Source of the DNA: Spartobacteria bacterium LR76
Lineage (GTDB): Bacteria; Verrucomicrobiota; Verrucomicrobiia; Chthoniobacterales; Terrimicrobiaceae
Length of the DNA stretch: 64,000 bases
Direction: 5' to 3'
Assembly (NCBI GenBank): GCA_003054655.1
Contig: QAYZ01000016.1
Coordinates: 682,001-746,000, forward strand
Position numbers and translations under genes: made by a program. Below, one piece after another: positions 59,962-64,000 of the stretch. The notes beneath the pieces were generated by a model that made no database searches, was not told the DNA's origin, and worked only from the letters and a program-made list of their open reading frames with translations. How positions within the stretch are numbered: the stretch's first letter is position 1; the number at the start of each line of letters is the position of its first letter.

Positions 59962-61197
59962 ATGGACGCAGCCCTCTCTTTGGGAGATTTTCTTGCCGTG
60001 GCTGTCGAAAACCCAAAAATCGAGACCCCGGACCTGATCGAGGCGGCACGCACGCTGCGCTCGAGAAGCGGTTTTGTGTGCCTCGAGGATGGCCTGCCCG
60101 GTCCTGAATCGTTTTCCCTCCTGGCGGCGGACCCCGATCTGGTGATGTCTGGAGATCTGTCAAACTGGGCCGACTTTGAGGCGGAACTCGCCCGCCGCTC
60201 CGCGCCCTCGGCCGATCTCGGCGTGCCGACCGGGGCGGCGATCGGCTGGGTCGGCTTCGATGGCAGCTTCCGCTTTGGATTTTACGAAGATCTGGCGATC
60301 CACCATCATGGACGCGGCATCTGGCTGACCAATCCGCCGACGATGGATGGCCCCGCCGAGCCGGGATTTTCGCGTCCCGAGTGGCGGCCTCGGATCAGCC
60401 GCGAGCATTTCGTCTCGATGGTGACGCGAGCCAAGGAATACATCGCGGCGGGGGATATCTATCAGGTCTGCCTGGCGCAGGCCTTCGAGTGCGAGTTCGC
60501 CGGGGACCCGTGGGGATACTATGAGTCCCTGCGCCACCACTCCCCCGCCCCCTACTCTGCCTTTCTCGATCTGGGCGGATGCCAGGTCGTCTCCGCCTCG
60601 CCCGAGTGCTTCCTGCGCATGAACGGGCGGCGCATCATCACCCGTCCGATCAAGGGCACCCGTCCCCGCCGCATGGATCAGCAGCTCGACCAGCGCAATG
60701 CCTACGACCTGCTCACCTCGCCCAAGGAAATCGCAGAGCTTGTCATGATCACGGATCTCGAGCGCAACGACCTCGGCCGGGTGTGCGACTACGGCAGCGT
60801 GTGCGTGCCGGAGCTGCTCAAGCTTGAGAGCTTTCAGCACGTGCATCACCTCGTCTCCACCGTGCAGGGCATCCTGCGCGAGGACGTGAGCCAGCCCGCC
60901 GCCCTGCGGGCGTGCTTCCCCGGAGGCTCGATTTCAGGCGCGCCCAAGAAACGCGCCCTGGAGATCATCGCGGAACTCGAGCCGCACCCGCGCGGCATCT
61001 ATACCGGCGCGATCGGCTACTTCGGATACAATGGAGAGAGTCAATTCTCCATCGCCATCCGCACGGCGGTCTTTGAAAACGGACGCGGCAGCTTTCACTC
61101 CGGTGCCGGGATCGTGGCGGATTCCGAGCCCGAGGCCGAGTGGCAGGAAACGCTCGACAAGGCGGCGACTCTCCTGCTGCCCGCACAGAAGCGCTGA
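59962..61197 (+). CDS. pabB: Aminodeoxychorismate synthase component I
   Basis: The 411-aa chorismate-binding enzyme has IAAGDIYQVCLAQAFE, SASPECFLRM and TRPIKGTRPR, where the Lys of PIKGT marks PabB rather than anthranilate synthase (PIAGT). ERNDLGRVCDYGSV, FPGGSISGAPKKRALEII and FHSGAGIVADSEPEAEW also fit. It aminates chorismate for folate synthesis with a glutaminase subunit, not encoded nearby. folK lies elsewhere in the window. Confidence 0.9.
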   Translation: MDAALSLGDFLAVAVENPKIETPDLIEAARTLRSRSGFVCLEDGLPGPESFSLLAADPDLVMSGDLSNWADFEAELARRSAPSADLGVPTGAAIGWVGFDGSFRFGFYEDLAIHHHGRGIWLTNPPTMDGPAEPGFSRPEWRPRISREHFVSMVTRAKEYIAAGDIYQVCLAQAFECEFAGDPWGYYESLRHHSPAPYSAFLDLGGCQVVSASPECFLRMNGRRIITRPIKGTRPRRMDQQLDQRNAYDLLTSPKEIAELVMITDLERNDLGRVCDYGSVCVPELLKLESFQHVHHLVSTVQGILREDVSQPAALRACFPGGSISGAPKKRALEIIAELEPHPRGIYTGAIGYFGYNGESQFSIAIRTAVFENGRGSFHSGAGIVADSEPEAEWQETLDKAATLLLPAQKR

Positions 61198-61255
61198 GCA
61201 GCGCCGCCGGGAATCGATTTGACCCACGGGCGAAGAAAAGCTACCTTCCGCCCTC

Positions 61256-61295
61256 GAGAGGACGACCTCTCCTGAACCGCACTCGGGACGGCCCG
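61256..61295 (+). promoter_or_regulatory. Guanidine-II (mini-ykkC) riboswitch
   Basis: Two hairpins with the diagnostic ACGR tetraloops lie just before the sugE-type gene. The first is GAGAGG-ACGA-CCTCTC (61256-61271), the second CGGG-ACGG-CCCG (61284-61295), with a 12-nt linker. This is the complete consensus of the guanidine-II class, in which two guanidinium ions dock the loops and free the ribosome binding site. The second hairpin ends 12 nt before the ATG at 61308. Confidence 0.85.
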
Positions 61296-61307
61296 GATCA
61301 TCATGTT

Positions 61308-61625
61308 ATGAACTGGGTATACCTTGCACTCGCGGCATTTTTTGAAATTGGCTGGGCCGTCGGCCTGAAATATAGCGACGGATTCCGGCGTCCGCTGGCC
61401 TCGACCGTCACGCTCCTCTGCCTCCTGCTGAGCATCACGCTTCTGGGCGTGGCGGCGCGCTCGCTGCCCATCGGGACGGCCTATGCGATCTGGACGGGAC
61501 TCGGCGCGGCCGGGACGTTCCTTTGCGGATCGCTGCTGCTCGGTGACACCCTGTCTCCGCTCAAGCTCGCCTGTATCTCCCTGATCCTACTCGGGGTGAT
61601 CGGCCTGAAGCTCGCTCCTCACTAG
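61308..61625 (+). CDS. gdx: SMR-family guanidinium exporter (SugE/Gdx)
   Basis: The 105-aa protein has four membrane helices and the SMR motif WVYLALAAFFEIGWAVGLKYSDGF. The essential Glu lies in helix 1 at AAFFEIGWA, and helix 3 is TAYAIWTGLGAAGTFLCGSL. The sequence is closer to SugE/Gdx than to EmrE. Placement behind a guanidine-II riboswitch strongly supports guanidinium export with proton exchange. It stands alone, after pabB and convergent with the BcsC-like gene. Confidence 0.92.
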   Translation: MNWVYLALAAFFEIGWAVGLKYSDGFRRPLASTVTLLCLLLSITLLGVAARSLPIGTAYAIWTGLGAAGTFLCGSLLLGDTLSPLKLACISLILLGVIGLKLAPH

Positions 61626-61681: not shown

Positions 61682-63799
61682 CTACTGGAAGAGGTCAAAC
61701 CCGATGAGGTCGGTGCGGAGTAGCCCCTTGCGGCGGTCGAAGAAGTAGCGGCCCCAGATGTAAATGCCGCCTTCGTTGTAATCCGCCGTGATATTGTAGT
61801 TCAGGCTGCCGCCGATCATCCAGTTGGGGTCGATGAGATAGCCGCCCTGGAGCTGGATGAGGCCGATGCCGGTGGTCGACTCTTGCGAGTCAAACTCCTG
61901 GCCGTCGTCGTCCAGCGGAAAATAGGGCGAGGCGTCCTGCGTGTTGTTCTGCACGCCCGCGCCGACGCTGCCAGCGGCGAGCCAGCGCCGTCCTTCTTCC
62001 GTGAGGAACTGGGCCTGGATGATGCCCTGCAGGAGATACTGCGGGCTGAAGTAGCCGCCGTTCCCGTAGGTAAAGTGATTCTGGTTATTGTCGAACTGCT
62101 CGTACGACAGGGCGAAGCCGATGGTGAAGTACTCGTAGCCCGGCATGTCGAGCAGGTGGGCAAAGGCTGCCGTACCGTACAGGTGGGTATTGTCCTCGAC
62201 GTTGGTGCCATCGATCGTGCCGTAACCGCCCTTGAGGTAGATCGTATTGTCTTCGCCGACGGAGTGGAAGAACTGGAGGTTGCCGCCTGTCTCCTGCACC
62301 CGGCCCCATTGGTTGCCGGTGTAGGGATCGACGATACCGACCCAGGAGAGCATGCTTTCCTTGATGGATTTGGAGTAAATCTCGCCCTGCACGTAGCCGC
62401 TGTTGCTGCGCCAGATGAGGCCGGCGCTGCCGGTCGGACGGCTCTGGAGGGGGCCGTTGATCGGCGTGGTGCCGAGTTGGATGTACCAGCTAATCCAATC
62501 CTGATACTCTAGGCGCACGTTGAACTCCCACAAGTCGTCCTCGCTCGTGGTGGGCTGGTAGTTGTAAGGAGTGTACACCGCAGGCGGGGTGCCGACCTGG
62601 GCGCCATTGGGCAGATCGCCGCTGTCGAGACTCAGGTGGGTCAACGCGGCGCTGAGCATGAACTTGTTGGCCGGGAAAACCTGCGCCTGAATGACCGGGA
62701 AGGTGATGACCTGCAACTGGCCCTCGCCCGCGGAACCCGACTTCGTGCGATACCCGAAGCCTGCGGCGACGCTGGGCTTGTTCAGGTTTTGGAGGACGGG
62801 ATAGACCTTGGCTCCGCCGGAGTCGGCAGCGGCGCGGAAGAGGTTGGCCGACATGTAGCTCTTCGCGTCATACGTGTAGTACATGTCGCGAAGGGGACCG
62901 CCCGAGCCGGAGAGCGAGTCGAGCTTGTCGTAGGCTTTGGTCTTGGAATACGCGGCGTAGGCTCCCTGAGCAGCGACACGATCGGGCGAGTTGCGGTAGA
63001 GCTTCTGGAAGAGCTCAGCCGACTGCTCGTATTGCTTGGTGTAGTAGAGATCCCACGCGACGATGATCTGCTCGTTGCGGCTCAGTGGGCGCATGGCACC
63101 GGCTTTGTTGAAATACTGGAGGCTGTCGTCGTACTGCTTGTTTTCGTAGGCCTCAGTGCCTCGCCGGGAGTAGATGTCGCCCAGCAGCGTCTTCATCTTT
63201 GGGTAGCTGTTGACGCGGAAATTGGCGATGGCTTCCGCCGAGGAAAGGTCCCCTTCCCGGAACTTGGAGAGGGCCAGGCCGTAGGCCGCCTCGCCGGAGT
63301 TGGAGTTCCACTCCAGAGCCTGGTTGAACCACATGCCGGCGGACGAATACTCGTTGCGATTGAAGTACGCCCAGCCGAGTTGCGTCGCCGTGGCGGAACT
63401 CCTGGTGGTACTCGCCTGGTTGGCGAGCTGGCTGAGCTGCGCCGTGGACAGCGTCTGCGGCATCGGTGAGGAACGCCTCACCGGGGTCGGAGTCGGCTGG
63501 GCCTTGGTCACCGGTTTCGCCACCGGGATGGCCTGGGGGATGATGTCCACCGTCTCGCCTGTCGCCTGCACGGCTGGTGCCGGCAGGTCGCTGGGAATAA
63601 ACATCGTCGGTGTCGCCGCCGCGGCGGGGGTCGGAGCCGGCGTCGGAGTGGGCGCTCCCGGCCTCACGGGAACGAAAAGGGACGGAGTGCTCGTCGGAGC
63701 CGGAGCACTGAGATCCGGCGGCGGTTGCTCACCAAAAAACGGTTGTGCGTCCGTCTTCTCGAATGCGAGAACGGAAAGGCCCAATGCAACCAGGCGCAT
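61682..63799 (-). CDS. BcsC-like outer-membrane porin with TPR repeats
   Basis: ATG 63799 gives a signal-like N-terminus (MRLVALGLSVLAF), though a GTG at 63853 is possible. The 705-aa protein has a Pro/Thr-rich segment. TPR repeats follow (AYFNRNEYSSAGMWFNQALE, GTEAYENKQYDDSLQYFNKA), then a large beta-rich C-terminal domain ending in an aromatic residue (GFDLFQ). AAGFGYRTKSGSAGEGQLQV and YFSPQYLLQGIIQAQFL resemble the C-terminal domain of BcsC. It probably exports cellulose or a related glucan. Synthase genes would lie outside the window. Confidence 0.7.
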   Translation of the reverse strand: MRLVALGLSVLAFEKTDAQPFFGEQPPPDLSAPAPTSTPSLFVPVRPGAPTPTPAPTPAAAATPTMFIPSDLPAPAVQATGETVDIIPQAIPVAKPVTKAQPTPTPVRRSSPMPQTLSTAQLSQLANQASTTRSSATATQLGWAYFNRNEYSSAGMWFNQALEWNSNSGEAAYGLALSKFREGDLSSAEAIANFRVNSYPKMKTLLGDIYSRRGTEAYENKQYDDSLQYFNKAGAMRPLSRNEQIIVAWDLYYTKQYEQSAELFQKLYRNSPDRVAAQGAYAAYSKTKAYDKLDSLSGSGGPLRDMYYTYDAKSYMSANLFRAAADSGGAKVYPVLQNLNKPSVAAGFGYRTKSGSAGEGQLQVITFPVIQAQVFPANKFMLSAALTHLSLDSGDLPNGAQVGTPPAVYTPYNYQPTTSEDDLWEFNVRLEYQDWISWYIQLGTTPINGPLQSRPTGSAGLIWRSNSGYVQGEIYSKSIKESMLSWVGIVDPYTGNQWGRVQETGGNLQFFHSVGEDNTIYLKGGYGTIDGTNVEDNTHLYGTAAFAHLLDMPGYEYFTIGFALSYEQFDNNQNHFTYGNGGYFSPQYLLQGIIQAQFLTEEGRRWLAAGSVGAGVQNNTQDASPYFPLDDDGQEFDSQESTTGIGLIQLQGGYLIDPNWMIGGSLNYNITADYNEGGIYIWGRYFFDRRKGLLRTDLIGFDLFQ

Positions 63800-63830
63800 G
63801 GCGCCTGAGGCAATGACTCCGGTGTTATAT

Positions 63831-64000
63831 CTATTTGGTCGCAAAGGACTCACGGACTGCGATCTTGGTCAGGATGGAAAGGCTGGCAGAGAAGTACGGC
63901 TCGTCCTTGGTTACCGCAGGAAGCGCACGAACTGTCAAGCTCGCTTTGGACGCGCAGGCGATGGTGTAGGCGGCTATTGCCTTCATCCCTGGCAGGGCGG
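63831..64000 (-). CDS. C-terminal fragment of an unrecognised protein (5' end outside window)
   Basis: On the minus strand an open frame enters at the window edge and ends at TAG 63833-63831. It encodes about 55 residues that read as real protein (KAIAAYTIACASKASLTVRA, YFSASLSILTKIAVRESFAT). The stop is 31 nt before the BcsC-like start, so it is probably the preceding gene of the same operon. Too little is visible to name it; a polysaccharide synthesis gene would fit the context. Confidence 0.5.
   Translation of the reverse strand, partial: ALPGMKAIAAYTIACASKASLTVRALPAVTKDEPYFSASLSILTKIAVRESFATK

Follow-up and report, generated by a model that had tools for sequence, protein, structure and literature searches.

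The window, by which we mean the whole 64-kb stretch of DNA analysed, encodes a gdx-type SMR exporter with a Guanidine-II element directly before its start codon (Table 1). The gene upstream (59962-61197) encodes a PabB-type chorismate enzyme and stops 5' of a candidate promoter. Convergent with gdx, on the minus strand at 61682-63853, is a gene whose 723-aa product carries TPR repeats as well as a BcsC C-terminal domain of cellulose export.

Table 1. Features of the gdx leader and gene, in window positions.
Feature	Position	Strand	Details and evidence
Candidate -35 box, TTGACC	61219-61224	+	Read from sequence; 17 nt before candidate -10; identical in 3/3 genus members
Candidate -10 box, TACCTT	61242-61247	+	3/6 to consensus; AAAGCTACCTTCC invariant in 3/3 genus members
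P1 hairpin, GAGAGG-ACGA-CCTCTC	61256-61271	+	6 Watson-Crick pairs; ACGA loop 61262-61265; cmscan RF01068 and covariation, 21 sequences
P1-P2 linker, 11 nt	61272-61282	+	RF01068 alignment
P2 hairpin, (T)CGGG-ACGG-CCCG(G)	61283-61296	+	4 Watson-Crick pairs and closing T-G; ACGG loop 61288-61291; cmscan RF01068 and covariation, 21 sequences
Predicted hairpin S, excludes P2	61291-61318	+	GCCCGG (61291-61296)/CTGGGT (61313-61318) and TCAT (61298-61301)/ATGA (61308-61311); loop 61302-61307; MFE core
gdx-type SMR exporter gene, 105 aa	61308-61625	+	PF00893 87.2 bits; SugE best NCBIfam match; 6wk5/6wk8 best solved relatives

The earlier note had read a Guanidine-II riboswitch from the two hairpins, and the Rfam covariance search (cmscan, Infernal) bears this out. 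RF01068 was called at 61256-61296 on the plus strand with 32.9 bits, only 0.9 bit above the gathering score of 32. It is the sole Rfam family over cut-off in the 64-kb window; the families of Guanidine-I, -III and -IV, which share the ligand and the kind of target genes (available text of PMC12186494), are not over cut-off there. Both stem-loops, with ACGA and ACGG loops, are closed by G-C pairs, as Guanidine-II requires, and the stems previously described as perfect are paired throughout, with a T-G pair closing P2. The element had been drawn to 61310 and so took in the ATG; the last aptamer position is 61296, and 11 nt separate P2 from the start codon (11-13 nt across the genus leaders). Tandem ACGR-loop hairpins (at least 6 pairs in one stem and 4 in the other, spacing 18-50 nt) occur once in the window, in none of 60 Markov-1 sequences (64 kb, one strand searched) and on neither strand of 400 kb more of the same genome.

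Each of the genus's three sequenced species has the element before gdx, with Guanidine-II scores of 32.9, 32.6 and 31.7 bits; the second is over cut-off and the third (G009) is 0.3 bit under. P1 and P2 are invariant among the three except at the outermost P2 position, in flanks that have diverged. Convincing matches were found only in these three among 26 family genomes; family-wide matches of at most 22.6 bits, the next best score, were dropped as far below the 31.7-32.9 bits of the genus members. No single-hairpin or other guanidine class was found before gdx-like genes of family relatives. With a score over cut-off, conservation in 3/3 genus members and the covariation in 21 relatives described below, the window element is, judged from sequence, a genuine Guanidine-II member and ordinary as an aptamer. 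A small leader ORF (ATG TTA TGA, 61303-61311) overlapping the gdx start is present only in the window species, is absent in G008 and G009, and was rejected as a conserved feature. One family relative (L027) has a GGAGGGACGACC...GTGTCGTCC repeat in three copies (at about 1347, 1507 and 1666), in which the GGGACGACC motif is also seen.

The assignment of the gene behind the element to SugE/Gdx, also made previously, is supported by several comparisons of the protein. It matches PF00893 far over the cut-off of 23.7 bits, and its best solved relatives (6wk5/6wk8) were found with an E-value of 1.4e-26. 6WK8 is Gdx-Clo, a guanidinium exporter whose pocket holds E13, W16, S42, Y59, W62 and K101 (PMC9000954, in the part available). 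The window protein aligns without gaps to Gdx-Clo over residues 1-102 and shares all six of these residues. Among NCBIfam models SugE (PRK11431) matches best, with 109.4 bits, which is under the model's cut-off of 126. The exporter role is predicted from sequence, as is the guanidine detoxification that the earlier note took the locus to show. These comparisons support a Gdx-type SMR exporter as the probable gene product. A recent transfer of the gene from Pseudomonadota was considered as a possible origin. The closest-ranked named relatives are from Rhodanobacter and Dyella, but in a Gdx tree of 106 rows, from which L134 was excluded for its short frame, the proteins of the three genus members cluster as a single clade next to those of two riboswitch-less family members; the branches there are long, which the program flagged. 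Also encoded in the same genome (G000) is a second SMR gene (L038/L204, C14:1471-1770; 111 bits), EmrE-like by eye, near which no guanidine riboswitch was found, and a partial third SMR match (L040, C11:1458455-1458583).

Guanidine-II is not confined to this locus. Over-cut-off matches to RF01068 were identified in 3/213 genomes of the order sample, 16/384 of the class sample and 18/387 of the phylum sample (the samples overlap), and also in a named Verrucomicrobiia genome (L084/G589). The proposal that the window would extend the range of the class to Verrucomicrobia is weaker, as the extension is not particular to this locus. It was set aside as the main novelty, since many genomes of the phylum already give matches with the public Rfam model. 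An open-access literature search found no paper naming Verrucomicrobia for Guanidine-II. Judged from sequence, these loci would add a further large environmental phylum to those in which guanidine is sensed and exported.

Neighbouring genes were examined at 38 loci, comprising all matches with E ≤0.01 from the order and phylum samples. An SMR frame lies within 600 nt at 21 of them; such a gene follows 19/20 distinct over-cut-off loci (the exception is L142) versus 2/18 below the cut-off. Five further loci of the class sample (L164-L168), read by eye, are all before an SMR frame. Among the 21 SMR-linked phylum sequences, 9/11 aptamer pairs show two-sided changes and 96.0% of cells are paired; the covariation score is 0.477 versus 0.206 when shuffled, and 0/500 shuffles scored as high. 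A model built from these 21 sequences matched 42/80 named gdx loci at E ≤1. All 42 matches are on the gene strand and about 180 nt or less upstream of the SMR start, with L052 overrunning the start by 8 nt. Of these, the best 27 (E ≤0.015) were kept and the 15 weaker ones dropped.

Several loci of these surveys have features of their own. L064 (Fibrobacterota) and L093 (a Campylobacteraceae MAG), phyla being given by record title, have Guanidine-II-like leaders with a Shine-Dalgarno (SD) sequence before gdx, and the genome of the former (G592) has two Guanidine-II-like matches. At L134 (G517; match 1501-1543, 40.1 bits) the gdx frame behind the element resembles SMR over the first ~30 residues only, as if interrupted. 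Repeated GGGCGGGACGACC-type hairpins in G587 (L144, L154, L155) give weak Guanidine-II scores of 26.7-29.3 bits and have no SMR frame after them. They resemble an intergenic repeat mimicking the aptamer and are a potential source of false positives.

TTGACC and AAAGCTACCTTCC are invariant in the three genus members, with 17 nt between the boxes, in a setting of variable adjoining positions. A promoter scan placed the candidate boxes below its threshold and did not detect them, so that the case for a promoter is one of conservation alone. The conserved boxes suggest transcription starting at the foot of P1, at about 61254.

No SD was identified in the window leader. Scored as a 4-nt piece of AAAGGAGGT at -20 to -5, a core match is absent from the leaders of all three genus members, and was found in 1/18 Guanidine-II/gdx leaders of the window's class versus 34/35 others. 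The class leaders comprise 17 from the family, order, phylum and class searches and L084, titled Verrucomicrobiia; the others comprise leaders of other classes of the phylum (8/9 with SD) and named leaders from elsewhere (26/26 with SD, 24 of them from Pseudomonadota). Fisher's p is 1e-11, a value that is overstated, as the loci are related. The 16S 3' end is intact in the window genome. SD-like 4-mers precede 60/231 long ORFs of this genome, versus 40/231 further upstream and 42/231 in shuffled sequence, and 127/643 internal ATGs; each ORF was started at its first ATG, and this blurs the signal. For comparison, E. coli has an SD-like 4-mer at 23/35 annotated starts, and at 12/21 with the same ORF caller. 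The class that holds the window's organism is, we assume, Spartobacteria. Low SD use (10 percent) is reported for Spartobacteria in the available text of PMC10783764. The SD-less leader is in keeping with a genome in which SD sites are few.

The published model for Guanidine-II is that guanidine exposes the SD (PMC12186494, PMC7544219, PMC5486947 and PMC13064478, each as far as its text was available). A platform of this kind is absent from the window leader; we regard it as belonging to the published examples and not as defining the aptamer class. Given that the leader has no SD, the textbook mechanism of SD release cannot apply unchanged.

A different platform is suggested by folding. In the predicted MFE structures of all three genus leaders P1 is kept and P2 is replaced by hairpin S, in which GCCCGG pairs with CUGGGU of codons 2-4 and the AUGA that includes the start codon is paired to UCAU. 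Predicted energies for S alone are -12.2, -11.9 and -11.2 kcal/mol versus -6.7, -6.3 and -6.7 kcal/mol for P2 alone. The arms of S are invariant in the three species, and the loop varies in sequence and, by one nt, in length. The protein (Trp3) fixes much of the CUGGG arm. When the Guanidine-II fold of P1 and P2 is forced, the predicted cost of opening positions -6 to +6 drops by 4.6, 5.8 and 5.3 kcal/mol (here and below in the order L001, L009, L010, three species that are not independent). This gain was matched by 30, 2 and 5 of 1000 leaders that were shuffled and synonymously recoded, by 25, 2 and 13 of 1000 when the leader alone was shuffled, and by 29, 2 and 14 of 200 under a stricter null in which CCCGG was fixed and the inner leader shuffled. 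We consider the gating signal moderate in two of the three leaders, and the support from these comparisons moderate overall. Start-codon gating is probably the platform in the window's genus.

Beyond the genus the predictions are uneven. The predicted opening gain is ≤1.3 kcal/mol in 12/18 class leaders. Strong gating is also predicted for L140, L168 and L131 (0, 0 and 3 of 200), and none is predicted for L136, L139 and L166 under the stricter null. A start-codon hairpin universal to the class was considered, and is not supported by the 18 leaders. A broader reading is that in Verrucomicrobiia, a class poor in SD sites, Guanidine-II riboswitches as a group have given up SD control and work, with an unchanged aptamer, through the accessibility of the start-codon region alone, via local hairpins that differ between genera; we offer this tentatively, as somewhat less likely than its opposite.

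Other explanations for the window leader were weighed against start-codon gating. An ordinary Guanidine-II switch could act by SD release if the short GGAUC at 61295-61299, next to P2, were a degenerate SD. SD exposure is the class mechanism in print (PMC12186494 and PMC5486947, in the parts available), GGAUCAU is invariant in the three genus members, and its GAUC could pair with the GAUC of the 16S 3' end. However, none of the three species has a 4-nt match to the AAAGGAGGU core at -20 to -5, SD enrichment in the genome is slight, and hairpin S accounts equally well for the invariant AUCAU. We therefore regard a degenerate SD as unlikely.

A main effect on transcript stability or early elongation, instead of translation initiation, appears less probable again. 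A 5'-terminal P1 could protect the transcript from decay, and Guanidine-III is described as also affecting RNA stability (PMC12186494, available portion), but the distance of 11 nt from P2 to the ATG suits translational control. Moreover, there is no terminator between P2 and gdx, where the 11-13 nt of the genus leaders leave no room for one; the sole terminator-like site on the plus strand is inside gdx (61500-61514). Least credible, and in our view highly improbable, is a functionless look-alike that arose by chance or decay. The score near the cut-off and the look-alike repeats with GGACGACC hairpins in relatives (L144, L154, L155, L027) would be compatible with such an origin, but invariant hairpins amid diverged flanks before gdx in 3/3 genus members, the covariation across relatives and the lack of any comparable tandem in the 60 random sequences or the 400 kb of the same genome argue against it.

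We consider it rather likely that the window element is a Guanidine-II riboswitch that turns on gdx translation by start-codon gating. The aptamer, the gene, the missing SD and the conservation of the leader can be read directly from the DNA; the steps that follow are conditional. Transcription probably begins at the base of P1. When guanidine is absent, the P2 3' arm would pair with gdx codons 2-4, and UCAU with AUGA, and hairpin S, if it forms in vivo, would bury the start codon. With guanidine bound, P1 and P2 would be stabilised through the known contact between their ACGR loops, and P2 would keep its own 3' arm, which would free the AUG. The gate would act on the start codon and not on an SD, because this leader, like most leaders of the genome, has none. 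P2 is predicted to be ~5 kcal/mol less stable than S, so that guanidine would have to act during RNA synthesis. P2 is made before its pairing partner in gdx, and thus guanidine could decide the outcome co-transcriptionally.

Like the Guanidine-II elements of E. coli gdx and Gloeobacter violaceus, the window element has two ACGR-loop hairpins joined by a short linker and lies immediately before a Gdx/SMR gene, and a translational ON switch is presumed for it as for them. In G. violaceus, the OFF state has been proposed to be a stem loop that overlaps both P2 and the ribosome binding site (PMC5486947, available text). Unlike these examples, the window leader lacks an SD, its predicted OFF hairpin buries the start codon together with codons 2-4, and its host is a member of the Verrucomicrobiota with few SD sites. 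The aptamer is of an already known kind, and the SD-less platform is the unusual part. The locus offers a compact natural test of a translational riboswitch where ribosomes do not need an SD. If start-codon gating is true, one aptamer would serve two modes of initiation, and platform prediction based on SD would miss such switches in SD-poor bacteria.

In addition to the SMR genes, the window's genome (G000) has 12 over-cut-off matches to Verru_Chthon_A (TIGR02600; L156-L163 and others), two of which are apparently pieces of one gene, and no match was found in 14 control genomes; on this basis we accept the host as a member of the Verrucomicrobiota. These Verru_Chthon_A cassette protein genes form an expanded family in G000, with products of ~1,300 aa each.
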